DNA from: Verrucomicrobiota bacterium
GTDB lineage: Bacteria > Verrucomicrobiota > Verrucomicrobiia > Limisphaerales > PALSA-1396
DNA length: 54,661 bases
Direction: 5' to 3'
Assembly: GCA_016200005.1 (NCBI GenBank)
Contig: JACQFP010000018.1
Coordinates: 1-54,661, forward strand
Shown one piece after another: positions 3,952-35,149 of the stretch (position 1 is the first letter of the stretch; each line of letters opens with the position of its first letter). The position numbers and the translations under genes were made by a program. The notes under the pieces were generated by a model that saw only the letters and a list, made by a program, of their open reading frames with translations, had not been told where the DNA came from and did not search any database.

Positions 3952-5165
3952 TGCATTTCCTTGGGCAGTTCGATGCCGAATTCACTTTCCAGCAAATACG
4001 CCACGCCTCCTTTTCCGGACTGGCTGTTGACGCGGATGACTTCGCGGTATTCGCGGCCAATGTCGTTTGGGTCAAGTGTGAGATAAGGCACGTCCCAGAA
4101 TTCGCGCGCGCCGCTTTTCCATTCGTTCAGACCTTTGCGGATGGCGTCCTGATGCGAGCCGCTGAACGCGGTGAAGACCAGTTCGCCGGCATAAGGTTGG
4201 CGTGGCGGAATCGTCATGCCGGTGCAACGTTCATAGACCTCGATGATCGAGCCGAGATCGGTGAAATCCAGCTTCGGATCAATGCCGTGCATGTGGAGAT
4301 TCAGCGCGACGGTGACGATGTCGAGGTTGCCGGTGCGTTCGCCGTTGCCAAAGAGCGTGCCCTCGACACGGTCCGCGCCGGCGAGCAAACCAAGCTCGGT
4401 CGCGGCGGTGCCGGTGCAACGGTCGTTGTGCGTGTGCAAACTGATGATGAGCGAATCGCGGTTCTTGATGTTACGGCAAATCCATTCGATCTGATCGGCA
4501 TACACATTAGGCATTGCTACCTCGACTGTGTCCGGCAGATTCAAAATCATTTTCCGTTGCGGTGTCGGCTGCCACACGTCCATGACGGCTTCGGAAATCT
4601 CCTTGGCGAACTCCACCTCCGTGGCGCTGAAACTTTCCGGCGAATATTGAAGCACGACCTCGGTGCCCTTGAGCCTCGGCAAACGCGCCTTGATCAACTC
4701 CGCGCCCCGTACCGCGACCTGGACAATTTCCTTTTTCGACATCCCGAACACGACGCGGCGTTGGGCGGGCGAAGTCGAATTGTAAAGATGGATGATGGTT
4801 TTCTTTGCGCCCACGAGCGATTCGAACGTGCGCTCGATCAACTCCTCGCGCGCCTGCACGAGCACTTGAAGCCACACGTCGTCCGGCGCGCGGTGTTCCT
4901 CGATAAGCCGGCGGTTGAACGTGAACTCGGTGTTCGACGCGGACGGGAAGCCGACCTCGATTTCCCTGAAGCCGCATTTTACGAGCGTGTTGAACAGTTC
5001 GAGCTTCTGCGAAACATTCATCGGCACGGCGAGGGCCTGGTTCCCGTCGCGCAGATCGACGCTGCACCAGATGGGCGCGCGGGTGAGAGTGCGGTTCGGC
5101 CACTGGCGGTCAGGCAACGCCACCGGTGGAAACGAGCGATATTTTTTCGTCGGGTCTCTTAACAT
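3864..5165 (-). CDS. leuA: 2-isopropylmalate synthase, truncated/frameshifted
   Basis: The intact frame encodes 433 residues of family-2 2-isopropylmalate synthase (acetyl-CoA + 2-oxoisovalerate to 2-isopropylmalate, first committed step of leucine synthesis). The TIM-barrel domain is complete: [11 protein letters not shown] (active-site Arg-Asp), [38 protein letters not shown] (metal-binding His-x-His), [13 protein letters not shown]. The frame runs to [20 protein letters not shown], then diverges into an unrelated tail of about 30 residues. The regulatory domain end is found in another frame just downstream. A deletion plus frameshift therefore removes the leucine-binding domain. Preceded by a leader peptide and attenuator (5289-5451). 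Either a real feedback-insensitive allele, a decaying gene, or an assembly error. Confidence 0.88.
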
Positions 5166-5178
5166 GGCTTTCTACTTT

Positions 5179-5278
5179 CTTCTTAATCTTACTCTTAATC
5201 TTTCCCTTGATTTTCATCTTGCTCTCAGTCCCGGCAACCGAGCGAGCAAGATTAAGAGGAAGATTAAGATTAAGTCCT
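5179..5278. repeat. TTAATCTT-type imperfect inverted/tandem repeat
   Basis: Between the leuA start and the attenuator. Left half carries repeats of CTTAATCTT and right half carries AAGATTAAG units, so the two halves can pair imperfectly around a GC-rich centre near 5230-5240. The composition differs sharply from the surrounding GC-rich sequence. It lies in the leuA leader transcript, downstream of the terminator hairpin, so it would be transcribed only on read-through. Looks like a dispersed repeat rather than a regulatory fold; this is inference. Confidence 0.5.
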
Positions 5279-5288
5279 GAAATACAAA

Positions 5289-5317
5289 AACCCCACTGCC
5301 GATTCGGCAGTGGGGTT
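5289..5317 (-). terminator. leu attenuator terminator
   Basis: On the minus strand, a 10-12 bp GC-rich stem (CCCCACTGCCGA paired with its complement) with a minimal loop is followed immediately by TTTTT. This is a classic intrinsic terminator. The T-tract exists only in the leuA direction. It lies 24 bases after the stop of a leucine-rich leader ORF and about 120 bases before leuA, the arrangement expected for ribosome-mediated attenuation. Confidence 0.85.
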
Positions 5318-5340
5318 CGGAAAATTCCTGTGAATGAAAA

Positions 5341-5415
5341 TCAGAACCCGACTGCCGCGCGGCCCAGCAGCAGCGCGTTAAGTAGCAGCAGTCGAATGTT
5401 CAAATTGCGATTCAC
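5341..5415 (-). CDS. leuL: leu operon leader peptide (attenuation)
   Basis: A 24-residue ORF read from GTG at 5415 (or 20 residues from TTG at 5403). It contains four consecutive leucine codons, Asn-Ala, then three more leucine codons (LLLLNALLLG). Five of the seven are CTG. It ends 24 bases before a strong intrinsic terminator placed ahead of leuA. In known amino-acid biosynthetic attenuation, ribosome stalling at such codons when charged tRNA-Leu is scarce prevents terminator formation. The -10 element ends 7 bases before the GTG, so the transcript probably begins at or next to the start codon, making it leaderless. No Shine-Dalgarno is present. Too short for ordinary gene calling. Confidence 0.8.
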   Translation of the reverse strand: MNRNLNIRLLLLNALLLGRAAVGF

Positions 5416-5422
5416 TGTGGCG

Positions 5423-5451
5423 AAAGTAGCAAGCAGGGCAGGGCGCGTCAA
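5423..5451 (-). promoter_or_regulatory. Sigma-70-type promoter of the leu leader
   Basis: Minus-strand TTGACG (5451-5446), exactly 17 bases, then TACTTT (5428-5423). The -35 matches consensus at five of six positions, the -10 more weakly. Predicted transcription start is around 5416-5415, coinciding with the GTG of the leader peptide. Confidence 0.65.
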
Positions 5452-5492
5452 CTGATTTTCTTTCTTCTTTTGGCTCGTGGGTTTTGCCTCAC

Positions 5493-6893
5493 TCACGCCG
5501 GATCGACTTGGTGTCCCAGTTCGCGGTAGCGCTGCAGCTTGTAGATAAGCGCGCGTCGGCTGATGCCAAGGGCTTTCGCCGTCTCCGTGCGGTTGAAATT
5601 GCATTTGCGCAGCGCCTGGAAGATGGCCTGCCGTTCGATTTCCTCCAGATGTTGAGCATCGGCCACGTCAACCGCTGTGCCCGGCTGCACCGTGGCCCGC
5701 ACTCGCGTGGGCAGGTGTTCGGGCAAAATGAGTTCGCCTCGGGAGAGCAGCGCGGCGCGCTCCATCGCGTTGCGCAATTCGCGCACGTTGCCCGGCCAGG
5801 CGTAGCGCGCCAGACAATCGGCCACCGCGGAGGAAAACCGCGCTTTGCCCTGGGTAAATTCCGCGATGAACGAATTCGCCAGCGGAACAATGTCTTCCGG
5901 CCGTTCGCGGAGCGCAGGCACGTTAAGCTCCACGACATTCAGCCGGTAGAAGAGGTCTTCGCGAAATCGGCCCGCCTTGACTTCCTCCTCCAGGTTGCGA
6001 TTCGTGGCGGCCAAGATGCGGGCGTTGGTCTGCGTCTCGTTGTTCGAGCCGACGCGCTGAAAGCGTCCGTCTTGTGTCACGCGGAGCAGTTTCGCCTGGA
6101 GCGGCGGGGACATGTCCGCAATCTCGTCCAGGAAAATGCTGCCGCCGTTGGCCTGTTCAAAGCGGCCGATTCGTTGGGCGATGGCACTGGTGAATGCGCC
6201 TTTCTCGTGCCCAAAGAGTTCGGTCTCCAACAAGTTTTCGGGAATGGCCGCGCAGTTGACCTTCACCAGCGGGCCGGCGGCACGCGGACTCCACGTGTGA
6301 ATGACATCCGCCAATACTTCCTTGCCCACGCCGCTCTCGCCAGTGATCAAGATGCGGCTCTCGGACGCGGCGACCAGCGACGCATCGCGAAACACCGCCT
6401 GCATCAGCGGACTTCGGGCGATCACATGAGCGGGCAATTGTTTGTCGGCAATGAATTTTAGCGGCGCAGATTCCGAGAGGCCGGTGGCCTGCTGAACCGA
6501 AGCCAGCAACTCATCGAGATCAATCGGTTTGGCCAGGTAATTGACCGCGCCATCGCGCATGGCGCCCACGGCTTCGCGGATGTCCGCATACGCCGTCACG
6601 AGCAGGACGGGCAGCACGGAATGCTCCTGCCGCGCGCGCCGCAATGTTTCCAATCCCGAAATGCCGGACATACGCACATCGGAAATCATCATGCTGATTT
6701 CTTCGGTGCGAAGAATCTCCAAGGCTTGTTCCCCGGAAGCAACGGGGACGGTCTCGAAGCCCTGGCCTCTCAGGAACGAATCGAGGAGACTGCGCTGACC
6801 CGCGTCGTCATCGACGATCAGGATTCGGGGCGATTTCGGACTGTTCTGGCGAGCATCGGACGGCATGACTGTGACCTTAGCATTTTTAGTCAA
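5493..6893 (-). CDS. Sigma-54-dependent response regulator (NtrC family)
   Basis: 466 residues, three domains. Receiver at about 22-140: ILIVDDDAGQ, phospho-acceptor Asp in MMISDVRMSG, Lys in YLAKPIDL. AAA+ sigma-54 interaction domain at about 160-395: Walker A GESGVGKEV, the sigma-54 contact loop reading GAFTSA instead of the usual GAFTGA, Walker B SIFLDEIADM, arginine finger region FREDLFYRLNV. C-terminal Fis-type HTH: FNRTETAKALGISRRALIYKLQRY. It activates transcription from -24/-12 promoters after phosphorylation. The likely partner is the histidine kinase at 7746-9245; the two are separated by an inserted toxin-antitoxin pair. Its position after the T2SS genes suggests it controls secretion or pilus-like functions. 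Alternative start at 6866. Confidence 0.93.
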   Translation of the reverse strand: MTKNAKVTVMPSDARQNSPKSPRILIVDDDAGQRSLLDSFLRGQGFETVPVASGEQALEILRTEEISMMISDVRMSGISGLETLRRARQEHSVLPVLLVTAYADIREAVGAMRDGAVNYLAKPIDLDELLASVQQATGLSESAPLKFIADKQLPAHVIARSPLMQAVFRDASLVAASESRILITGESGVGKEVLADVIHTWSPRAAGPLVKVNCAAIPENLLETELFGHEKGAFTSAIAQRIGRFEQANGGSIFLDEIADMSPPLQAKLLRVTQDGRFQRVGSNNETQTNARILAATNRNLEEEVKAGRFREDLFYRLNVVELNVPALRERPEDIVPLANSFIAEFTQGKARFSSAVADCLARYAWPGNVRELRNAMERAALLSRGELILPEHLPTRVRATVQPGTAVDVADAQHLEEIERQAIFQALRKCNFNRTETAKALGISRRALIYKLQRYRELGHQVDPA

Positions 6894-23867: not shown

Positions 23868-24536
23868 ATGTCAGACATTTTCCCAAAGTGGACCAATCGG
23901 CTGCCATTGCACCTTGCGGTTGGCACGCTGCTGGTTGGCACGGCGGTGACGGCGGGTGTTTGGTATTATTTCACTCCTAAGTACACCCGGGTCGGGTATC
24001 AACCGATTCAGCCGGTCGCTTTTTCGCACGCTACTCACGCTGACCAACTCGGCATCGATTGTCGCTACTGCCACAACGCCGTCGAAAAAGCGTGGTATTC
24101 CAACGTGCCGGCGAGTGCGGTCTGCATGAATTGTCACAATCAAATCTTGAAGGACGACGCTCGGCTGGCGCTGGTACGAGACAGTTTTGCGACGGGGAAA
24201 CCGATTCCCTGGGTGCAGGTGCACAAAGTGCCGGACTATGTTTATTTCAACCATTCCGTGCACGTGAACCGCGGCGTCAGTTGTGTCGAGTGCCACGGCC
24301 AGATCAATAAAATGGATGAAGTCCAGCACGCCAAGCCGCTCAGCATGTCCTTCTGCCTCCAATGCCATCGTGATCCTGCCGCCCGGCTGCGGCCGCCGGA
24401 CAAAATCACCGATTTGAACTGGAAATGGAGTGATGATCCCAAGGTCGCCGCGGCGCGACAGAAAGAAATGGGCGAGAAATTCGTGCATGATTGGCGAGTC
24501 CAATCCTTGCAAACCTGTTCCACCTGTCACCGATGA
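23868..24536 (+). CDS. actA: Alternative complex III subunit A, pentaheme cytochrome c
   Basis: 222 residues. One N-terminal transmembrane anchor (about 13-34, LHLAVGTLLVGTAVTAGVWYYF), then five CxxCH heme-binding motifs: CRYCH, CMNCH, CVECH, CLQCH and CSTCH at the very C-terminus. His residues such as FSHATHADQLG and FNHSVHVNRG are likely distal ligands. Size, anchor and five hemes match ActA of known ACIII complexes. It carries electrons from the iron-sulfur subunit toward periplasmic acceptors. First gene of the operon; its stop overlaps the actB start (ATGA). Confidence 0.93.
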   Translation: MSDIFPKWTNRLPLHLAVGTLLVGTAVTAGVWYYFTPKYTRVGYQPIQPVAFSHATHADQLGIDCRYCHNAVEKAWYSNVPASAVCMNCHNQILKDDARLALVRDSFATGKPIPWVQVHKVPDYVYFNHSVHVNRGVSCVECHGQINKMDEVQHAKPLSMSFCLQCHRDPAARLRPPDKITDLNWKWSDDPKVAAARQKEMGEKFVHDWRVQSLQTCSTCHR

Positions 24537-27500
24537 AAACAATTCCACCACCCTGTCCTGAGCCGGAGAGCGGACCGAAATACTGGCGCAGCCTGGACCA
24601 ACTGGCTGACACGCCGGAGTTTCGTCAATGGGTGGAACGCGAATTCCCGGCGGGCGCCAGCGAGTTCACCGACCCTGTTTCGCGCCGGCATTTCGTCAAG
24701 ATCATGTCCGCGTCCTTCCTGCTGGCGGGACTCGGTTTGACCGGTTGCCGGCGGCCGGAGGAAAACATTTTGCCGTTCTCCAAGATGCCGGAGAATTACA
24801 CACATGGCGTACCCCAGTTTTTTGCGACCGCCATGCCCGTGCGCGGCAGTGCCATTCCGCTGCTGGCCAAATCCCACGAAGGTCGTCCGACGAAAATCGA
24901 AGGAAACCCACAGCATCCCGACGGCAATGGCAGCACCGACGCCTTCGCGCAAGCGTCCATCCTGAATCTTTACGATCCTGATCGCGCGACGCGCTTTGCA
25001 AAGAACGGCAACAACGTGTCGCGAGATGCGTCGCTCGATTTCTTGGCGGACTTGTCCAAGCAAGCGCAAGCCAACGGCGGTCAAGGCTTGAGCGTTTTGC
25101 TGGAACGAAGCAGTTCGCCGTCGCGCGCCCGTCTGCAAAAGTTAATTGGCGAAAAGTTGCCCAAGGCGGGTTGGCACGTTTATGAGCCGGTTGATTTCGA
25201 CATTCACCGCGAGGCCGCGACGCTGGTCACCGGCAAATCGGTCGCGCCTTATTTCAAACTCGACACCACGAAGGTGATCGTCTCGCTCGATTGCGATTTT
25301 ATCGGCACGGAAGAAAACGCGCACATCAACATCCGTCGGTTCGCCCAAGGACGCCGAATCGAAAAGCCGACTGATTCCATGAGCCGGCTGTACGCTGTGG
25401 AAGGACTCTTCACGTTGACCGGCGCCAACGCCGACCATCGTTTGCGAATCCCAACGAGCGCGGTGCTGTCCGTCGCCGCTCGACTGGCGCTGGAAATCCG
25501 CAAGGAAGCGGGTCAGCCGCAATTTCTCACGGCATTGTCGCCGCTGGCTGAAGCCGCTAAAGCGCATGAAAAATGGATTGCAGAATGCGCCAAAGACCTG
25601 CTGGCCAATCGTGGTCAATGCCTGGTGCTCGCCGGCCAGCGCCAGCCGCTCGCCGCGCATTTGATTGCCAACGCCATCAACGCCGCGTTGGAGAACCACG
25701 GCAAGACCGTCGTCTTCCACGACGCCCCGCAAACCAAAGAAGGCGGCATCGCCGAACTGGCGCAGTCGCTCAACGCCGGACAAGTGCAGACGTTGATCGT
25801 GCTCGGCGGCAATCCGGTTTACAACGCGCCGGCGGATTTGAAGTGGGGGGAAGCACAGTCGAAGGCAAAGACCGTCGTTCGCCTCGGTTATTACGAGGAT
25901 GAATCTTTTCCCGCCAATGGCTGGCATTTACCGCAGGCGCACTTTCTCGAATCCTGGGGCGACGCTCGCACGGCCGATGGCACAGTGGTTTCCATTCAGC
26001 CGCTCATCAAGCCGCTGTTCGATGGTTTGACTGAACTGGAAGTCCTCGCGCGCCTCGGCGGCCTGGACAGAACCAATCCCTACGACATCGTGCGGGAAAC
26101 GTTCAAAGGCATCGGCGGCGAGGGTGAAGATAATTGGAAGAAATTTTTGCACGACGGTTTTCTCGCGGGCAGCGCGGCGAAGCCCGTCACGGCAGAATTT
26201 AATTGGAGCGCAACCGCCAATGTGGTCACGGCCACGAAGCCAGTCGCGCTACCGTCCAAAGACTCCCTCGAAATTGTTTTTCATCGCGACGCGAAAGTGG
26301 ACGATGGGCGTTACAATAACAACGGCTGGTTGCAGGAATTGCCAGATCCCATCACCAAGATGACGTGGGAGAATGTGATTCTATTGAGCCTGAAAACCGC
26401 CGTTGAACTGGGCGTGATTGGCCAGAACGAGAAGAGCCTCGACCACGAAAACAATGACCTCAAGGTGCCGTGGGTGAAAATTCAAGTGGATGGTCGCGAA
26501 ATTGAAGGACCGGTTTGGATTCAACCTGGATTGGCTGACAACACGCTGGGCTTGGCGCTCGGTTATGGCCGCAAGCAAACCGGTCGCGTCGGTCGAGGGT
26601 CCGGTTACGATGCTTTTCAATTGCGCACGAGTGCCGCACCGCACGTGGCTTCGGGTGCAAAGTTGGTTTATACGTCGGGCGCAACGCATCCGCTCTCCAC
26701 GACGCAAAACCATTGGTCGATGGAAGGCCGCCCAGTTGTTCGTGAAGCGAATCTGACGCAGTATCGGGAGCATCCGGAGTTTGCGAAGAATATGAAGCTG
26801 GAGGAGCCGCCCAGCACGCAGCCGCTTTATCCCAACCCGCTCGACAGTGACAAAATCAAGGAGCGAGCGATTCACTGGTGGGGGATGTCGGTTGATCTGA
26901 ACGCCTGTGTCGGTTGCTCCGCCTGCATGATGGCGTGCCAGAGTGAGAACAACATTCCCATCGTTGGCAAGGAACAGGTCGGCAAGAACCGCGAGATGCA
27001 CTGGATTCGCATCGACCGTTATTACTCCGGTGAAGTGACCGATCCGCAAGCGGTCACGCAACCGATGCTCTGTCAGCACTGCGAGAGCGCGCCGTGCGAA
27101 AGTGTGTGTCCCGTCAACGCCACGGTTCACGATGAAGAAGGTTTGAACGTGATGGTCTATAACCGCTGCGTCGGCACACGTTATTGTTCCAACAACTGTC
27201 CGTACAAGGTCCGACGCTTCAATTATTTTGATTACAACAAGCGCCCGTTGGACCAGCTCTACAAGAGTCCGGTGTTCAACCGCATGGATGGCGAATGGGG
27301 CCTGTTGAAGTGGTGGAAGGATGTGGACAAGGGCACCAAGCGCGAGGACGAATGGGAGCTGATGAAGCTCGTGCGTAATCCGGACGTGACCGTGCGCATG
27401 CGCGGCGTCATGGAGAAATGCACGTTCTGCCTCCAGCGCATCGAGCAGGCCAAGATCGCGCAAAAGGTCAAGGCCGGGGCGTCGGGCGACGTGGAAGTGC

Positions 27501-27826
27501 CCGATGGCACCATCAAGACCGCGTGCCAGCAGGCATGTCCGGCTGAAGCGATCGTGTTTGGAAACATCAAAGACCCGAGCAGTCACGTGTCCAGACTCAA
27601 AGCCCAGGAGCGCGACTACAAAGTATTGGACTTTCTGGCAACCCGCCCGCGCACCACGTATCTGGCGCGCCTGCGCAATCCGAATCCTGCGATGCCCGAT
27701 TACCGCGACATGCCTTTGAGCCTGAAAGAATACACCGCAAAAAATGGAAGCCCATTTGAAACTCATGGCGGGGAACATGGCGCTGCTGCCGGACATGAAC
27801 ACACTTCTGAGAAAGGAGCGCACTGA
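24533..27826 (+). CDS. actB: Alternative complex III subunit B, molybdopterin-like/iron-sulfur fusion
   Basis: 1097 residues from the ATG at 24533 overlapping the actA stop. A Tat-type signal ([23 protein letters not shown]) suggests folded export and possibly lipid anchoring at the Cys. Residues about 80-720 are a molybdopterin-oxidoreductase-like domain ([33 protein letters not shown]) with no cofactor-ligand motif I can see, as in other ActB. The ferredoxin-like C-terminal part has four Cys clusters: [38 protein letters not shown] and CTFC with CQQACP. It takes electrons from ActC/quinol and passes them to ActA. The B1-B2 fusion is the common form. Confidence 0.93.
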
Positions 27827-29256
27827 TGTCTGACACTGTGATTTCTCCGACAGTCAAGATCCAGCCGCCGCCTGCGGAGCTGGAGCGTATTCCATTGGTT
27901 GCCAATCGGCGCGGGCCGGGATGGATTTCCGATCACATCGCCGGAGTGGTGGAAGGCAAGACGCCGCTCTGGTGGTGGTGCGCGTTCATTCCGAGCTTCC
28001 TTTGCATGATCATGTTGTTTTGTCTCATTGCCTATCTCATTGGTACGGGGGTGGGCGTCTGGGGGCCAGGCCACCCGGTTATGTGGGGCTGGGCCATCGT
28101 CAACTTCGTCTGGTGGATCGGTATCGGTCACGCCGGAACGCTCATTTCCGCGATTCTATTTCTGCTGCGCCAACGCTGGCGCACTTCGATCAACCGCGCC
28201 GCCGAAGCCATGACAATTTTCGCCGTCATGTGCGCCGGCATCTTCCCGGTCATTCACATCGGACGGGTCTGGTTTGGGTGGTGGCTGCTACCGTTGCCCA
28301 ATGCGAACGGGCCGATCTGGCCGCAGTTCCGTTCGCCGTTGATGTGGGACGTGTTTGCCGTCTCGACTTACTTCACCGTGTCCGTGTTGTTCTGGTATGT
28401 GGGTTTGATTCCCGATCTGGCCGTCATCCGCGATCGGGCAAAAACCAAAATCCGAAAATTCTGTTACGGTCTGTTCGCGCTCGGTTGGACCGGCTCAAAC
28501 CGGCACTGGAGCAATTACGAACGGGCTTATTTGATTCTGGCGGGTCTTTCCACACCGCTGGTGCTCTCGGTGCACAGTATCGTGTCGTTGGACTTCTCGG
28601 TGTCGCAACTGCCGGGCTGGCACACGACCATTTTCCCGCCGTACTTCGTGGCCGGTGCGATCTACTCCGGCTTCGGCATGGTGCTGACGCTGTTGGTGCC
28701 GTTGCGGAAGGTCTGCAAATTGGAAGAAGTCATCACCCTGCGACACGTGGATTTGATCTGCAAAGTGACGCTGGCGACCGGCTGCATTGTCAGTTACGCC
28801 TACGCAATGGAATATTTCATCGCCTGGTACAGCGGCAATCCCTACGAGCGTTTCGCGTTCTGGCAGCGGCTCTTCGGCAAGTACTGGTACGGCGGCTGGG
28901 CGATGCTCGCGTTCAATATGGTGACGCCGCAACTTTTCTGGTTCAAAAAAGTGCGTACGAATATGATTGCGGTGTTCGTCATTTCCATCCTGGTGAACAT
29001 TGGCATGTGGTTTGAGCGGTTTGTCATCGTGGTCGGTTCGCTCTATCGCGATTTCATCCCTGCCAACTGGGGTTACTTCAAGCCGACCTGGGTGGACGTG
29101 ATGACGTATGTCGGCACGTTCGGTTTGTTCTTCACGTTCTTCCTTTTGTTCATCCGTTTCCTGCCGTTGATCGCCATCGCGGAAGTCAAAGGCGTCACAC
29201 CGCAGGCCGACCCGCATCATCCGCTGGGCGGCGCCAAAGAGGGGGGGCATCACTGA
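27826..29256 (+). CDS. actC: Alternative complex III subunit C, NrfD-like quinol-binding membrane protein
   Basis: 476 residues with about ten transmembrane helices, NrfD/PsrC family. Landmarks: [125 protein letters not shown]. These match ActC, which holds the periplasmic-side quinol site next to the iron-sulfur subunit. Good Shine-Dalgarno (AAGGAG) 9 bases before the ATG, which overlaps the actB stop (TGATG). The C-terminus is His-rich. Confidence 0.93.
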
Positions 29257-29795
29257 TGGCTGAGACGACCAGCAACTATGCCTTGCTCGCCGAGTTTGAA
29301 ACGGCGGCGGACACTTTGCACGCGGCGGAAAAGGTGCGCGACGCTGGCTACACGCAATGGGACGTGTTCACGCCATTTCCCGTTCACGGCCTGGACCGGG
29401 CGATGGGAATGAAAAGTTCCAAGGTCGGATGGTTTTCCTTCCTCGGCGGCGTGACCGGCTACACGACGGGCATGTTGATGATCTGGTACATGAATGCTTA
29501 CGACTACCGGATACCCGTCGGTGGCAAACCGATGTTCAGCCCCTTCTCCGCATTTCCGCCGTCCTATGAATTGACGATTCTGCTCGGCTCATTCGGCGCG
29601 ATCTTAGGCATGTTGTTTCTGAATCGTCTGCCGCGCCTGCATCATCCGTTGCTGAAGCACCGGCGGTTTGGACTGGCGAGCCACGACCGGTTTTTCGTCG
29701 TGATTGAAACGGCTGACCCGAAATTTTCGGAAACCGAAACCCGCAAGTTGCTGGAAGCCGCCGGCAGCAAGCGCATCGAGGAAGTGAGGGATTGA
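29256..29795 (+). CDS. actD: Alternative complex III subunit D (DUF3341)
   Basis: 179 residues, DUF3341. Cytoplasmic N-terminal domain (LLAEFETAADTLHAAEKVRDAGYTQWDVFTPFPVHGLDRAMGMKSSKVG), two transmembrane helices (about 59-80 and 108-128), then a cytoplasmic tail with FGLASHDRFFVVIETADPKF. Matches ActD in length and topology. It has no cofactors in known structures and stabilises ActC and ActF. Start overlaps the actC stop (TGATG). Confidence 0.92.
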   Translation: MAETTSNYALLAEFETAADTLHAAEKVRDAGYTQWDVFTPFPVHGLDRAMGMKSSKVGWFSFLGGVTGYTTGMLMIWYMNAYDYRIPVGGKPMFSPFSAFPPSYELTILLGSFGAILGMLFLNRLPRLHHPLLKHRRFGLASHDRFFVVIETADPKFSETETRKLLEAAGSKRIEEVRD

Positions 29796-30409
29796 TGCGC
29801 TATTTCCTCCTCCTCCTCGGACTATCGACGGTGCTCGTGATGGTGGTCGCCGGCAAACGGGGCGACATGTCGCGTCGCCCGCCGATTGAAATTTTCCCCG
29901 ACATGGATCGCCAACCCAAGTTGCGTCCGCAAACACGCAACAACTTTTTTCCGGACCAACTCAGTTCGCAAATGCCGGTGCCCGGCACCATCGCGCGCGG
30001 CACGCCCTACGAAGACACGCCGGTCAACACGGGACGCATCACCGGCACGACGAATTTTGTGGAAACGATCCCCGTTCCCGTCACTGAACAGTTGATCACG
30101 CGCGGGCAGCAGCGTTTTCAGATCAACTGTTCGCCCTGTCACAGCGCGATGGGCGATGGCAACGGCATCACCAAGCGACTGGGGATGGCCGTGGTTGGCA
30201 ATTTGCATGACAAACGCATTGTTGAATTACCGGATGGCGATGTTTTCAACACCATCAGCAATGGCAAGAACCTGATGGGCGCTTATGGCGCGAACGTTTC
30301 CATTCAGGATCGTTGGGCGATTGTGGCCTACGTCCGGGCGCTGCAACGCAGCCGGCTGGCGGATCTGAATGATGTGCCGGAGGCGCAACGTGGCGCGTTG
30401 AAGAAATAG
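29795..30409 (+). CDS. actE: Alternative complex III subunit E, monoheme cytochrome c
   Basis: 204 residues from the ATG at 29795 overlapping the actD stop; a TTG one codon earlier is a less likely start. N-terminal hydrophobic segment (YFLLLLGLSTVLVMVVAG), family signature PIEIFPDMDRQPKLRPQTRNNFFPDQLSSQMPVPGTIARGT, single heme motif CSPCH with MGDGNGITKRLGM, and a probable Met axial ligand in KNLMGAYG. Matches ActE. It probably relays electrons to the downstream cytochromes or oxidase. Confidence 0.92.
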   Translation: MRYFLLLLGLSTVLVMVVAGKRGDMSRRPPIEIFPDMDRQPKLRPQTRNNFFPDQLSSQMPVPGTIARGTPYEDTPVNTGRITGTTNFVETIPVPVTEQLITRGQQRFQINCSPCHSAMGDGNGITKRLGMAVVGNLHDKRIVELPDGDVFNTISNGKNLMGAYGANVSIQDRWAIVAYVRALQRSRLADLNDVPEAQRGALKK

Positions 30410-30412
30410 ATT

Positions 30413-31681
30413 ATGAGCAGAAACCCTGAAACTGGCGCTCCGTTCAACTTGTCCAAATGGCGCAGTGTGCCCAACCGGATGATTCTCGTCGGCGGCGTGA
30501 TCGCGTTGCTCGGCTGGATCCTTGACGCCCGGCAATTTGGTTTTTCCTGGCTGCTGGCTTACATGTTCTGCCTAAGTTTTGGTTTGGGTGGTTTGTTTCT
30601 GGTGTTGGTCCATCATTTGTTCGATGCCAGTTGGTCGGTGCCCATCCGGCGCTTTTGCGAACATCTCGCGGGCTTGTTGTTCCCTTGGATGGCGATCTTG
30701 TTCATCCCGCTCGCGGTGCTGGCGCCCAAGATTTATCCGTGGATGCAACTGCTTGCCAGGCACACCCCTGATCACGCGCTGCGCTCGAAGGAAGCTTTTC
30801 TCAACCTGCCGATGTTCTATCTGGTGGTGGTGTTCTGCTTCGTTGTCTGGAAGGTGCTCACGTCTGGCCTGCTTAAATGGTCGCTAAAGCAGGACGAAAC
30901 CGGCTCGGCGGAATGCACCAACAAAATGCGGTTGTATTCGTATTGGGGGATTTTCGCGTTCGCGATCACCTTGACGCTGATGGCGATCATGCTGGTGAAG
31001 GCGCTCGAGCACGAATGGTTTTCCACGATGTATGGCGTCTATTATTTCGCCGACAGCGTTTGGGCGACGTTGGCGGTGGTTTATGTCATCACGGCGATTC
31101 TGCAGCGCAACGGTCAGCTCAGGGACGTCGTGCATGCGGACACTTTTTATTACATCGGCTCGCTGTTGTTTGCGTTCACGGTGTTTTATGCCTACATCCA
31201 CTTCGCGCAATACTTCATCATCTGGAACGCCAACATGCCGGAGGAAACTTTCCACTATGTCCTGCGCGAGGCGGGCATCTGGTGGTGGGTCGGCCAGATC
31301 ATCATCTTCGGTCATTTCTTTGTTCCGTTCCTGCTGTTGCTGCGCATCGACGTGAAACTGAAATTCTGGTTCATGATTCCCCTGGGCACGTGGGTGTTGT
31401 TGATGCGCTTCTTCGATCAATGGTTCAACACCGGCGCGGTCGTTCACCCGGAGGGCTTCCTCATCAATCATGCGGTTCAATGGTCTTCGCTCGCTTGGGA
31501 TTTGCTTCTGGACGCAGGTTGTATCGCATTCATCAGTGGGGTGTTGATCAAGGTGTTCCTGAATTCGTTCCACGCGCATCCGCCCTATCCGCTGCGCGAC
31601 CCGCGGATGGCCGAATCGCTCGGCGTCTATGTGCCGCCCGCCGCCGGGAGCCGCGCGGCTTCTCACGGAGGTGCCAAATGA
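30413..31681 (+). CDS. actF: Alternative complex III subunit F, NrfD-like membrane protein
   Basis: 422 residues, about ten transmembrane helices, the second NrfD-like ACIII subunit. Landmarks: FSWLLAYMFCLSFGLGGLFLVLVHHLFDASWSVPIRRFCEHLAG, YSYWGIFAFAITLTLMAIMLVKALEHEWFSTMYGVYYFADSVWATLAVVYVIT, FAQYFIIWNANMPEETFHYVLREAGIWWWVG, FHAHPPYPLRDPRMAESLGVYVPP near the C-terminus. ActF is proposed in the literature to form a proton path together with ActC. Three bases after actE; ATGA overlap with the next gene. Confidence 0.92.
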   Translation: MSRNPETGAPFNLSKWRSVPNRMILVGGVIALLGWILDARQFGFSWLLAYMFCLSFGLGGLFLVLVHHLFDASWSVPIRRFCEHLAGLLFPWMAILFIPLAVLAPKIYPWMQLLARHTPDHALRSKEAFLNLPMFYLVVVFCFVVWKVLTSGLLKWSLKQDETGSAECTNKMRLYSYWGIFAFAITLTLMAIMLVKALEHEWFSTMYGVYYFADSVWATLAVVYVITAILQRNGQLRDVVHADTFYYIGSLLFAFTVFYAYIHFAQYFIIWNANMPEETFHYVLREAGIWWWVGQIIIFGHFFVPFLLLLRIDVKLKFWFMIPLGTWVLLMRFFDQWFNTGAVVHPEGFLINHAVQWSSLAWDLLLDAGCIAFISGVLIKVFLNSFHAHPPYPLRDPRMAESLGVYVPPAAGSRAASHGGAK

Positions 31682-32055
31682 ACGCGGATCGTGGCGGGAA
31701 TCAATTGACGTGGGTGGCGTATATCGTCGCCGCGCTCGGCACGCTGTTCATCGTCGCCGGGTTGGTCGGGGTGATGATTCATTACACCCGGCCAGCGCCG
31801 CTGAATACGGCGCGCATCGCTGAGCGCCACGAGACCCTGAAGAAACTTCGGGCCGAAGAAGCGAAGACGCTGACCGAATACGACTGGCAGGATCAAGTCA
31901 AAGGCGTCGTGCGACTGCCGATCACGAACGCGATGGAACTCATCGTCCGCGAATATCAGAATCCTGCCGCGGCTCGCTCGAATTTGATCGCGCGCGTGGA
32001 AAAGGCGACGGCAGCTCCGCCCAAAGCGCCGGAGAAACCGAGTCCGTTTGAATAA
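31678..32055 (+). CDS. Small membrane protein of the ACIII/oxidase operon
   Basis: 125 residues beginning at an ATG that overlaps the actF stop (ATGA). One transmembrane helix at about 11-35 (WVAYIVAALGTLFIVAGLVGVMIHYT), then a periplasmic helical region (IAERHETLKKLRAEEAKTLTEYDWQDQVKGVVRLPITNAMELIVREYQN) and a Pro/Ala tail. The segment from YDWQD to the end of IVREYQN resembles small ACIII/oxidase-associated proteins of this phylum in my judgement. It could be the equivalent of the small ActG-type subunit or an assembly factor; no cofactor motifs. Tight coupling argues for membership in the complex. Confidence 0.75.
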   Translation: MNADRGGNQLTWVAYIVAALGTLFIVAGLVGVMIHYTRPAPLNTARIAERHETLKKLRAEEAKTLTEYDWQDQVKGVVRLPITNAMELIVREYQNPAAARSNLIARVEKATAAPPKAPEKPSPFE

Positions 32056-32073: not shown

Positions 32074-33543
32074 ATGAATGCGCCCGCTTCCCAATCGCAG
32101 TCCAGTCCCATTGAAGACGCCGGCGCTTTGGCGGCTTCGCCCGCGGAGAGCGACGCCTCGTGCCGGTATCCGGTACTGTATTTGATGGCCAAGGCAGCGG
32201 GTTGGCTGGTGCTCAGTTCGATTTTCTCGCTCCTCGACTCACTCAAGTTCCACTCGCCGAACATTCTTGCAGACTGTTCCTGGTTGACCTACGGCCGCGT
32301 GCAACCGGCGCAAGTCAACATGCTCATTTATGGCTTTGCGATCCAGGCCGGCGTTGGTGTTGCCCTGTGGTTGATCGCCCGGTTGGGCCGCACGACGCTG
32401 CTCCAGCCGGGATTCATCACCGTCAGCGCCGCAGTTTGGAACCTGGGCGTCGCCATTGGGGTCCTCGGCATTCTCGCGGGCGACAGCACGGGCTTTGAAT
32501 GGCTGGAGATGCCGCGCTACGCTTCGCCGATCTTACTGCTGGCGTATGCGCTGATGAGTATCTGGGCGTTGATGACTTTCCAACAACGACGGGAACACCG
32601 GCTCTACGTCTCGCAATGGTTTTTGCTCGCGGCGCTGTTCTGGTTTCCGTGGATTTATTCGACGGCGAATCTGCTGCTCGTCGTCGCGCCGGTGCGCGGC
32701 ACGCTGCAGGCCGCTATCAATTGGTGGTATGTCAACAACCTCAGCTCCATCTGGCTGGGCTTCGTCGGTTTGGCGGCCATCTTCTATTTCATTCCCAAGC
32801 TCATCAACCGTCCGTTGCACAGTAATTCTCAGGCCCGGTTCGCCTTCTGGCTGCTGGTCTTGTTCGGTGGTTGGGGCGGCTTTCCGGACGGCGCGCCGCT
32901 GCCGGCATGGATGCCGAGCCTTAGCACGGTTCTGGGCGCGATGACGATCCTGTCGTTGATTGCGCTGGCGATCAACTTGCACCTTACGCTGAAAGGCCAA
33001 TACTCAAAGGTGCAACAGAGCGCGCCGCTCAAATTCATCCTGTTCGGTTTGGCGGCGTTCATGCTGGGCAGTTTGTCCAACATCGCCAGTTCGCTGCACC
33101 CCATCAGCGAGATCATCCGCTTTACCTGGTTCACGGCAGCACAAAAGCAACTCGTGCTCTACGGCTTCTTCGCGATGACGATGTTCGGTGCTTTCTATTA
33201 CATCATTCCCCGTTTGATGCAAAGCGATCGGCTGTCGGCAAGGTTGATCAAGTGGCATTTCTGGTGCGCCGCGGCGGGGACAGTGCTTTACGTCCTGCCT
33301 TTGAGTGCGGGCGGCGTCGTGGAAGGATTTCGATTGAACGATGCAAACGTGGGATTTGCCGACGTCTTGAAATCGACGTTGATGTTTTTGCGGATTAGCA
33401 CCATAGGCGACGTTTCGATGTTGATTGGTAACTGCTGCCTGTTGGCGAACCTGAGCCTGCTGTTTTATCGCTGCTGCCGGTCCTGCTGCATTCCCGCGAT
33501 CAAATCCCTCACCAAGACTGAAGTCATGGAGGTGACGTCGTGA
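32074..33543 (+). CDS. CcoN-like (cbb3 oxidase subunit I) protein lacking all heme and copper ligands
   Basis: 489 residues, about 12 transmembrane helices, aligned end to end with CcoN by landmarks: LKFHSPNILAD, LTYGRVQPAQVNMLIYGFA, WWYVNNLSSIWLGFVGLAAIFYFIPKLINRPLHS, APLPAWMPSLSTVLGAM, FTWFTAAQKQLVLYGFFAMTMFGAFYYIIPRL. At each ligand position His is lost: the helix II heme His (RPLHT in CcoN) is Gln, the first copper His (WWYGHN) is Asn, the GPHH pair is absent, and HVH of helix X reads QKQ. The six His residues present all sit elsewhere. It cannot bind hemes b/b3 or CuB in the canonical way. ATG at 32074 chosen over TTG one codon before. Operon position suggests a structural or proton-handling partner of ACIII (inference). 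Confidence 0.88.
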   Translation: MNAPASQSQSSPIEDAGALAASPAESDASCRYPVLYLMAKAAGWLVLSSIFSLLDSLKFHSPNILADCSWLTYGRVQPAQVNMLIYGFAIQAGVGVALWLIARLGRTTLLQPGFITVSAAVWNLGVAIGVLGILAGDSTGFEWLEMPRYASPILLLAYALMSIWALMTFQQRREHRLYVSQWFLLAALFWFPWIYSTANLLLVVAPVRGTLQAAINWWYVNNLSSIWLGFVGLAAIFYFIPKLINRPLHSNSQARFAFWLLVLFGGWGGFPDGAPLPAWMPSLSTVLGAMTILSLIALAINLHLTLKGQYSKVQQSAPLKFILFGLAAFMLGSLSNIASSLHPISEIIRFTWFTAAQKQLVLYGFFAMTMFGAFYYIIPRLMQSDRLSARLIKWHFWCAAAGTVLYVLPLSAGGVVEGFRLNDANVGFADVLKSTLMFLRISTIGDVSMLIGNCCLLANLSLLFYRCCRSCCIPAIKSLTKTEVMEVTS

Positions 33544-34535
33544 ATCGTGGCGCGCTGATTTTTCTGGGCGTTTTTTTCGCACTGGCCGCGTCGTGGTTCG
33601 GACTGGTGCTCATGCCGCAGTTGGAGATCGGCGGCCAACAACCGGAAAAGGCCGACCTGCTGGCCAAACTTGAATCACGGGAGAATTGGAAATTACTGCA
33701 ACTCGGCCAGCCTGTGAAAGCGGAAGGCTATGGCGCCATCTATCCCTCCCTTCCCGCCGGGATGGCGCGACAAGGGGCGGAGGTTTATCGCGCCAACGGT
33801 TGCGCAACCTGCCACACGCGACAGTTGCGTCAGACGGGTGTGACGTTCGATGTGGTGCTCAATAAGCCCGGCACCAACCTGACTGAAGTCATCAACGCTG
33901 TGCGTAAGATCAAACCCGAACTCGGCGATGCGGATGCCAAGAAGCTGGTGGAAACAATTCCCCAGCCAATCCTTCAGGGAGTCGCGCAGAACGCAGCCGA
34001 CGCGGCGGCCAAAGCCCTGAACGAAGCGGGTGCCCAGGCCGAGGTCAAACTGGTTCCACTGGGGCCGGACATCGCGCGCAATTGGGGACCGCGCCGCACC
34101 GTCGCGCAGGATTATTTGTACGATTATCCGGTGCTGCTCGGCTCGCAACGCATCGGTCCGGACCTCATCAACGTCGGCCTGCGGCTGCCCTCGGAGGAGT
34201 GGCATCTGTCGCATCTTTACAACCCACGAATGCTCGTGCCCAACTCCACCATGCCGCCGTATCGTTTCCTGTTTGAGAAGCGCAAAATCGGTCGGCAAGC
34301 CTCACCGGAAGCGTTGAAGTTGTCCGGCAAGTTTGCGCCGCCGTCGGGGTACGAAGTTGTGCCGACCACAAAGGCGAAAACCTTGGTCGCCTTTCTGCTG
34401 AACCAGCGGATTGAAGCATCGCTGTTCGAAGCGCCGTTTCCGCAATCGGCGGCCAATCCCGTCGCCGACGCGTCAACGAACGCGCCCGCGACCAACGTGC
34501 CCGCCGGCGCCACGACGAATTCTCCTGCGAAATGA
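33540..34535 (+). CDS. CcoO-like monoheme cytochrome c
   Basis: 331 residues from a GTG overlapping the previous stop (GTGA). N-terminal transmembrane anchor (ALIFLGVFFALAASWFGLVLMPQ), then the CcoO pattern: YPSLPAGMARQGAEVYRANGCATCHTRQLRQTG with one heme motif, and the family's second half NWGPRRTVAQDYLYDYPVLLGSQRIGPDLINVGLR, WHLSHLYNPRMLVPNSTMPPYRFLF with the likely axial Met. Between the halves is an extra helical Ala/Lys-rich insert of about 70 residues (NLTEVINAVRKIKPELGDADAKKLVETI...). The C-terminal 30 residues are Ala/Thr/Asn-rich. Normal CcoO is about 200 residues. It pairs with the ligand-less CcoN-like subunit. Confidence 0.87.
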   Translation: MNRGALIFLGVFFALAASWFGLVLMPQLEIGGQQPEKADLLAKLESRENWKLLQLGQPVKAEGYGAIYPSLPAGMARQGAEVYRANGCATCHTRQLRQTGVTFDVVLNKPGTNLTEVINAVRKIKPELGDADAKKLVETIPQPILQGVAQNAADAAAKALNEAGAQAEVKLVPLGPDIARNWGPRRTVAQDYLYDYPVLLGSQRIGPDLINVGLRLPSEEWHLSHLYNPRMLVPNSTMPPYRFLFEKRKIGRQASPEALKLSGKFAPPSGYEVVPTTKAKTLVAFLLNQRIEASLFEAPFPQSAANPVADASTNAPATNVPAGATTNSPAK

Positions 34536-35149
34536 ATTCAGAAAAACCATTGCTTCAAGCTGCTGACGAAGCCGAGCCGACAGCCGGCACCGCCGCCACG
34601 CCGGTATTTCTTTTCGTGCTGCTGCTGCTCTTGACCTACTGGGGCATGTATTACCTTGACCAACACAGCGGCGGATTTCAGGCGCTCGCCTACGAGCCGT
34701 ATAGCGGTCTTGATGAACTTCGCGCTTTGGAGCCGAAACCAACCAGTGGATTTGATCCACGTTATGGCAAGGCTGTTTACGAAAGAACTTGCGGCGTGTG
34801 TCATCAGCCAACCGGCCTGGGGGCCGCGGGGCAGTTTCCGCCATTGGCCAGCTCCGAGTGGGTCAACGAACCCGATCCAGCCCGGCTGATTCGGATTGCG
34901 TTGGATGGCGCGCAAGGACCGATCACCGTCAATGGTCAGGAATGGAACCTGATCATGTCGGTCAACGGCAAGCAATTGGGCTTGTCGGACCAGGACCTGG
35001 CCGCCGTGCTGAGTTACGTCCGCCAGGCTTGGGGGAATAAGGCCCCGCCCGTGACGGCAGAACAAGTAAAGGCCATTCGACCACAAACCGAAGGCAGGTC
35101 TGTGCAGTGGACCGCAACCGAATTGCTGGCCGTTCCGGTGAAGAAGTAA
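34532..35149 (+). CDS. Membrane-anchored monoheme cytochrome c
   Basis: 205 residues; the ATG overlaps the previous stop (ATGA). Transmembrane helix at about 23-41 (TPVFLFVLLLLLTYWGMYYLD), then a class I cytochrome c domain: YGKAVYERTCGVCHQPTGLGAAGQFPPLASSEWV, ITVNGQEWNLIMSVNGKQLGLSDQDLAAVLSYVRQAWGNKAPPV with Met in the expected distal position. Only one heme, so it is shorter than the diheme CcoP it replaces in gene order. Last gene of the respiratory operon. Probably the exit point for electrons to a terminal oxidase encoded elsewhere (inference). Confidence 0.88.
   Translation: MNSEKPLLQAADEAEPTAGTAATPVFLFVLLLLLTYWGMYYLDQHSGGFQALAYEPYSGLDELRALEPKPTSGFDPRYGKAVYERTCGVCHQPTGLGAAGQFPPLASSEWVNEPDPARLIRIALDGAQGPITVNGQEWNLIMSVNGKQLGLSDQDLAAVLSYVRQAWGNKAPPVTAEQVKAIRPQTEGRSVQWTATELLAVPVKK

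Follow-up and report, generated by a model that had tools for sequence, protein, structure and literature searches.

Why should a bacterium keep an oxidase subunit that has lost every residue for binding heme and copper? The metal ligands of heme-copper oxidase (HCO) subunit I are commonly taken to be invariant, and a gene with an HCO fold is easily counted as an oxidase when genomes are surveyed. The gene considered here lies at 32074-33543 of a 54,661-nucleotide stretch from a Verrucomicrobiota bacterium (contig JACQFP010000018.1, order Limisphaerales; the whole stretch is called the window below). It encodes a relative of CcoN and stands directly behind a cluster for alternative complex III (ACIII). 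We asked what the protein has lost, how often relatives have lost the same, and what selection still keeps.

The CcoN-like gene and its neighbours

The ccoN-like ORF runs from an ATG at 32074 to a TGA at 33541-33543 and encodes 489 aa. It lies in an ordered series of mostly overlapping ORFs, in which Pfam hits to ActD, NrfD-like and cytochrome c families agree with an actA-F order. The features are as follows.

23868..24536, plus strand: ActA-like multiheme cytochrome c of ACIII (ORF with several CxxCH; position)
24530..27826, plus strand: ActB-like molybdoenzyme/iron-sulfur fusion of ACIII (ORF, also listed from a TTG at 24491)
27826..29256, plus strand: ActC, NrfD-like membrane subunit of ACIII (PF03916, E 1.1e-22)
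29256..29795, plus strand: ActD of ACIII (PF11821 ActD, E 3.7e-64)
29792..30409, plus strand: ActE-like cytochrome c of ACIII (PF13442, E 1.5e-11)
30413..31681, plus strand: ActF-like membrane subunit of ACIII (position; no Pfam hit at E 1e-3)
31678..32055, plus strand: small protein of 125 aa, hydrophobic near its N-terminus and possibly ActG-like (overlap with the actF end; no family in a Pfam search)
32074..33543, plus strand: ligand-less CcoN, an HCO subunit I pseudoenzyme (profile, alignment, predicted fold)
33540..34535, plus strand: CcoO/FixO-like membrane cytochrome c with CxxCH and a Met motif (PF02433, E 6.7e-22)
33846..34049, plus strand: ribosomal L7/L12 C-terminal domain inside the CcoO-like protein (PF00542, E 5.8e-15)
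34532..35149, plus strand: membrane-anchored monoheme cytochrome c in the place of CcoP (PF00034, E 1.4e-11)

The Act names other than ActC and ActD follow gene order.

Residues 57-471 of the CcoN-like protein align with 3mk7_A, the CcoN chain of a cbb3-type (C-type) oxidase (phmmer, E 4.6e-33), and the motifs GRVQP, WWYVNN, YFIPKLINRP and FYYIIPR are present. The protein scores 170.1 bits against Pfam COX1 (PF00115, cut-off 34.8) and so belongs to the HCO subunit I profile despite its missing ligands. Its 148.1 bits against the NCBIfam ccoN equivalog (TIGR00780, cut-off 583.15) leave it outside that family. An AlphaFold2 single-chain model (pLDDT 94.8, pTM 0.93) has 3mk7_A as its best solved match in Foldseek (TM 0.86/0.90, rmsd 2.0, 22% identity in that alignment). 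The original prediction, made from the sequence alone, had claimed likeness to CcoN along the whole length and an intact frame coupled to a cytochrome gene. The alignment, the COX1 profile, the fold and the four motifs agree with the first claim. The second holds as well, as the ORF is complete and its stop overlaps the GTG start of the CcoO-like gene at 33540.

Loss of the heme and copper ligands

Ligand sites are given in 3mk7 chain numbering, followed by the window residue (M=1). The His of helix II for the low-spin heme is Gln (H60 to Q80), and the pair of His on helices II and X is lacking. H207 is N221, and the active-site Tyr is also gone (Y251 to G265). H257 and H258 are P271 and D272, with a 2-residue gap directly after D272. 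In helix X, HVH reads QKQ (H345 to Q357, H347 to Q359; the published numbering of this pair is 347/349). Thus none of the six metal-binding His remains, nor does the active-site Tyr, and the high-spin heme His, the three CuB His and the cross-linked Tyr are all lacking.

These are the substitutions that had been predicted, namely Gln for the helix II heme His, Asn for the copper His of WWYGHN (here WWYVNN), loss of the His-His pair and QKQ for HVH. The structural comparison that had been set as a possible refutation places no His at the metal sites. The known HCO ligands all sit in helices II, VI, VII and X. The window CcoN has only six His (residues 60, 175, 249, 303, 342 and 395), and its predicted helices II, VI, VII and X contain none of these. 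Misalignment is unlikely because the predicted fold matches 3mk7_A, and the four helices are free of His. Judged from its residues, it is hard to see how the protein could bind hemes b and b3 and CuB as known HCOs do, and the real protein would lack these cofactors; it is near certain that it is non-catalytic.

Ligand-less relatives in the class

Relatives were first sought in the genome of the window itself, in another of its genus and in 95 others of its order; of these 97 genomes 84 had one, some of the hits being canonical CcoN only. With a liganded member as query, 122 of 387 genomes of the phylum matched at E 1e-35 or better, canonical CcoN included, and viral contigs searched with a liganded member gave no match. 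After near-copies and ORF matches under 350 aa were dropped, 175 of 203 matches were kept and aligned with 3mk7_A; 167 are ACIII-linked and 8 canonical. The 167 proteins are a collected sample, not a census, and many of the sampled genomes are draft assemblies. Alignment A1 left out L036, L039, L083, L086 and five canonical rows.

Among the 167 proteins, the number of ligand residues kept was 0 in 63, 1 in 61, 2 in 8, 3 in 4 and 7 in 31. The distribution is two-peaked: 31 proteins keep 7/7 (liganded), 136 keep 3 or fewer (ligand-less), and none keeps 4-6. The window's order accounts for 80 proteins (77 ligand-less, 3 liganded) and other orders for 87 (59 ligand-less, 28 liganded). Within the class (presumably Verrucomicrobiia), the ligand-less state is widespread. 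In the window's order, the three liganded members (L020, L023, L024) share 43-48% identity with the window protein, and the canonical CcoN hits mostly 22-28%.

Two cases were observed beside these counts. Genome G039 (about 86-89% complete, 580 contigs) apparently has both the liganded L020 and the ligand-less L050. The ligand-less pair L123 and L124 (family f67) has HNSQRYH at the seven sites and 50-51% identity to L024; still close to liganded proteins, the pair is useful for the early steps of loss.

History of the ligand-less state

For a careful tree, we selected 51 of 176 rows ourselves, removed the seven ligand columns and used a site-mixture model. This tree has five changes of state (bootstrap range 4-5), and a single origin appeared in 0 of 200 bootstrap trees; its starred (well-supported) branches alone force only two changes. 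One common origin of the ligand-less forms was rejected when two trees were compared by the AU test (p-AU 0.0001), and forcing all ligand-less proteins together costs 134 log-likelihood units. A quick tree of all 176 rows has 4 changes, of which starred branches force only 3. In it most ligand-less rows lie outside the liganded cluster, with only L123, L124 and L125 inside. We read the changes as losses because regaining seven residues is implausible. The sequences point to several losses, with about five as the better-modelled estimate of a number that depends on the model.

Selection on the ligand-less proteins

In 31 ligand-less pairs (72-98.5% protein identity), dN/dS was 0.048-0.285 with a median of 0.157; the median of 22 liganded pairs was 0.121, and the window gene gave 0.162 with its nearest relative. 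Since some sequences occur in more than one pair, the pairs are not independent, and some have a dS above 1. The rows of G081 and G024 contain one stop each, and among the other family rows listed in the two genome searches none contains any. Decay was rejected, since dN/dS is far below 1 in 31/31 pairs and stops are confined to two of the listed rows. The dN/dS check proposed earlier thus indicates purifying selection, and together with the intact frames it upholds the claim of a conserved non-catalytic role rather than decay.

The gene might nevertheless be a relaxed relic that is being lost and is held only by its place in an essential operon. In favour of this, the ligand-less proteins are more diverged than the liganded ones (mean commonest-residue fraction 0.46 in 136 ligand-less, 0.70 in 31 liganded) and sit on longer branches in both trees; the two stops point the same way. 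However, the low dN/dS holds in every pair, the other listed rows have no stop, and the ligand-less state recurs and persists across whole families. We consider the relic explanation very improbable.

The commonest residues at the seven sites of the 136 ligand-less proteins are A (38%), N (23%), G (63%), P (22%) and, at H258, H345 and H347, H (15%), Q (25%) and Q (33%). In six of these seven columns the variability exceeds that of the median column (entropy percentiles 54th, 71st, 18th, 79th, 95th, 74th and 83rd of all columns), and different lineages fill the old pocket differently. Because the old ligand columns are under no special constraint, the sites look abandoned, not re-used. The view that the Gln and Asn substitutions are structured and conserved had to be given up: when their conservation in relatives was checked as proposed, the commonest Asn stood at 23% and the two commonest Gln at 25% and 33%. 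Lack of Gln conservation had been named as a refutation together with random decay by stop codons; the first was found, and the second is absent.

Could the pocket have been put to another use, such as another mode of heme binding, or for a lipid, a quinone, an ion or a proton path? Part of the family has Gln at the two former ligand sites of helix X, which would suit this. The variability of six ligand columns and the different fillings among lineages do not, nor does the fate of T215, S240, Y251 and Y317, the K-channel columns. These are invariant in the 31 liganded proteins and kept in 16, 15, 0 and 32% of the ligand-less ones. A re-purposed pocket is accordingly improbable, though less so than a relic, and a proton channel, which the original prediction had considered, is an unlikely role to judge from these columns.

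What has been kept instead was scored on the columns at least 90% conserved in liganded proteins. The ligand-less proteins still keep 14/23 of them in periplasmic loops, 42/131 in membrane helices and 1/12 in cytoplasmic loops, the sides of the membrane being assigned from the known HCO topology. The periplasmic loops are kept best (Fisher p 0.010 against helices and 0.004 against cytoplasmic loops, in statistics that count related sequences as separate).

Partners of the CcoN-like protein

In 135/136 ligand-less and 29/31 liganded loci, the CcoN gene is preceded on its own strand, at no more than 1.5 kb, by an actF gene. As for the exceptions, L036 and L122 reach the end of their stretch and L020 has 1.2 kb left upstream. 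In most loci a homologue of the 125-aa protein separates actF from the CcoN gene, ActB-like homologous ORFs precede actC in related loci, and an ActA-like homologue lies upstream in the two loci with enough flank (L078 and L079). The predicted link to ACIII is thus confirmed in gene order, and the scaffold half of the earlier claim of a membrane scaffold bound to ACIII survives. The CcoN module may also be physically assembled with ACIII.

Downstream, the PF02433 hit and the CxxCH agree with a CcoO bearing one heme c, as in the cbb3 complex. A CcoO-like partner was found in 133/136 ligand-less loci (CxxCH in 132) and 31/31 liganded loci with the wider position limit; the narrower limit gave 122/136 for the ligand-less. 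In alignment A2, made of 42 of the 164 CcoO partners found, C88, C91 and H92 are invariant and M238 is present in at least 90%. The column of the axial Met holds Met in 31/31 liganded partners and in 101/133 ligand-less ones, the remainder having Cys (19), a gap (4) or other residues (9). The c heme of CcoO may therefore be changed in about a quarter of the ligand-less loci.

The second cytochrome has one CxxCH (CGVCH) in 205 aa and is not a diheme CcoP, scoring 18.8 against the ccoP profile TIGR00782 (cut-off 179.95). Homologues of this monoheme cytochrome lie up to 4 kb downstream of the CcoN gene in 130/136 ligand-less loci, with CxxCH in 128. The redox parts remaining in the module are c hemes at the periplasmic surface.

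The CcoO-like protein of the window also carries an L7/L12 domain, which sits between the heme motif and the remainder of the cytochrome and matches E. coli 1ctf in Foldseek (TM 0.93 by target, rmsd 1.1, 48% identity). The domain occurs in 12/42 scanned CcoO-like relatives, and a separate L7/L12-type gene is present on contig C16 of the window's genome. A motif search puts the length from CxxCH to GPDL at 45 residues in 31/31 liganded loci and at 84-235 residues in 31 ligand-less loci of the window's order. The longer stretches of this order (for example in L028, L056 and L060) are some of them L12 domains and others different inserts.

Other oxidases and the adjacent coxA

If the module passes electrons on, another oxidase would receive them. 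An aa3-type coxA follows on the same strand, 1.4-2.3 kb on, in 23/93 ligand-less loci with at least 4 kb downstream; two loci that were read have the order actF-orf-CcoN-CcoO-cytC-coxA-coxC. On the tree, these 23 cases occupy three positions, with 19 in families f64 and f69 and two pairs elsewhere. None of the stretches examined from the window's order with 4 kb or more downstream has a coxA beside the cluster. That coxA adjacency marks the ligand-less state was rejected, as the difference from the liganded loci with room (1/18) is not significant (p 0.11).

A scan of named genomes was seeded with f64 and f69 proteins, and the best 80 of 171 loci were read, from Haloferula, Luteolibacter, Roseibacillus, Rubritalea, Persicirhabdus and Prosthecobacter among others. 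Each of the 80 is ligand-less, keeping at most 3 of the 7 residues, and coxA comes next in 65 of the 70 with enough room. The scan was drawn from the lineage that shows the coxA pattern, partly from the same genomes, and is not an independent estimate.

Another PF00115 protein above 300 bits is encoded in 44 of the 48 ligand-less genomes of the window's order that are at least 90% complete (out of 77 proteins), and in 40/40 ligand-less genomes examined elsewhere in the class (of 59 proteins), both tallied by eye. In the window's genome these other oxidases are on other contigs. Four ligand-less draft assemblies of the order (G015, G016, G040 and G068) show no other full HCO. A second oxidase does not discriminate the ligand-less state, as 26/28 liganded genomes have one too, and for the same reason the other oxidases permit an electron bridge but do not prove it. 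G097, G242 and G035, all liganded, show only the ACIII-linked oxidase.

One neighbour of another kind was seen in L088. At 4594-5979 (G000, contig C86), a 461-aa protein with weak PF00115 similarity and a HAHAHLG motif adjoins a small same-strand ORF; several relatives have similar weak hits.

A proposed platform for cytochromes

We suggest that, within an assembly of ACIII and an oxidase, the dead cbb3 core acts as a membrane platform that carries c-type cytochromes, a reading to which we give a probability of about 0.58. A structural role is favoured because catalysis has been lost while the fold, the periplasmic face, the c-heme partners and the linkage to ACIII were all kept. The ancestors of the class probably had an ACIII-linked cbb3-type oxidase made of ActA-F, CcoN, CcoO and a monoheme cytochrome c. 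In several lineages CcoN would then have lost the ligands for heme b, heme b3 and CuB, the active-site Tyr and the K-channel, and the gene stayed. What would remain is the body of 12 helices, and its periplasmic face most of all; this face may still dock CcoO and the cytochrome c and hold both next to ACIII. Electrons would run from menaquinol to ActB, on to ActA/ActE and to the c hemes on the dead CcoN platform, and in the last step to a different, intact oxidase of the aa3 type or canonical cbb3. The most economical account is that of an ACIII-cbb3 supercomplex that gave up its own reaction with oxygen and turned into a platform whose cytochromes supply another oxidase.

The more specific proposal, that the core was stripped about five times in parallel and kept as an electron bridge from ACIII to a live aa3 oxidase, falls slightly short of even odds. 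Electrons may pass through the CcoN-held cytochromes. The platform reading is slightly weakened by the axial Met of CcoO, which is retained in only 101/133 ligand-less loci. Against the platform also stand the lack of an adjacent coxA in the window's order, the p of 0.11, the second oxidase in liganded genomes too and the four draft genomes without another full HCO.

Dead CcoN might instead only anchor or chaperone ACIII and the cytochromes, taking no part in transfer to a particular oxidase, with a soluble carrier removing the electrons. This would explain why linkage to actF is near universal (135/136) and linkage to coxA is not (23/93), why the other oxidases of the window's genome are on other contigs, and why the Met ligand of CcoO is not always kept. 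A pure anchor would need no c hemes, however, and CxxCH is kept in 132/133 CcoO partners and 128/130 cytochromes; the two loci running from actF through to coxC, and coxA next in 65/70 loci of the seeded scan (best 80 of 171), also speak against it. We regard the anchor as unlikely, although the least so of the alternatives to the cytochrome platform.

If the platform exists as proposed, an HCO pseudoenzyme would be a permanent structural part of a respiratory supercomplex. The loss of the ligands in many genomes offers a natural experiment on how ACIII passes electrons to oxidases and an example of pseudoenzymes that arose in parallel in energy metabolism, and calls of an ACIII-linked 'cbb3 oxidase' in Verrucomicrobiota may often be wrong.

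Comparison with known systems

Full-text searches of an open-licence library, most subscription papers being outside it, listed no paper on a ligand-less CcoN. A 2026 paper on Verrucomicrobiota genomes (PMC13274419) gives the label of caa3 oxidase to the genes after actA-F. Supercomplexes in which ACIII passes electrons directly to caa3 or aa3 are known (PMC5928083, PMC8552683). Like the window locus, those of Flavobacterium johnsoniae and Rhodothermus marinus have an ACIII gene cluster and couple quinol oxidation to an oxidase. They differ in making direct contact, with an extra cytochrome c domain carried by ActA or by subunit II of the oxidase, and the excerpts of both papers name no CcoN-type subunit in between. 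In F. johnsoniae, ACIII reduces aa3 even without ActE, and the excerpted text does not mention a CcoN-type module (PMC8552683); this transfer counts against the proposed platform.

In verrucomicrobial methanotrophs and Opitutaceae, C-type oxidase genes directly adjoin those of ACIII, as the CcoN module does here (PMC8498564, PMC6688271). The excerpts of these papers do not mention ligand-less forms. The methanotroph and Opitutaceae oxidases are presumably the liganded sister form of this family, whose 31 proteins keep 7/7 ligand residues, unlike the window protein. Compared with the cbb3 complex itself, the window module has a monoheme cytochrome c where CcoP would be expected. Its CcoN shares with 3mk7_A the predicted fold, a CcoO operon partner with CxxCH and the surface and loop motifs, and differs in having no ligands for heme b, heme b3 or CuB and no active-site Tyr.
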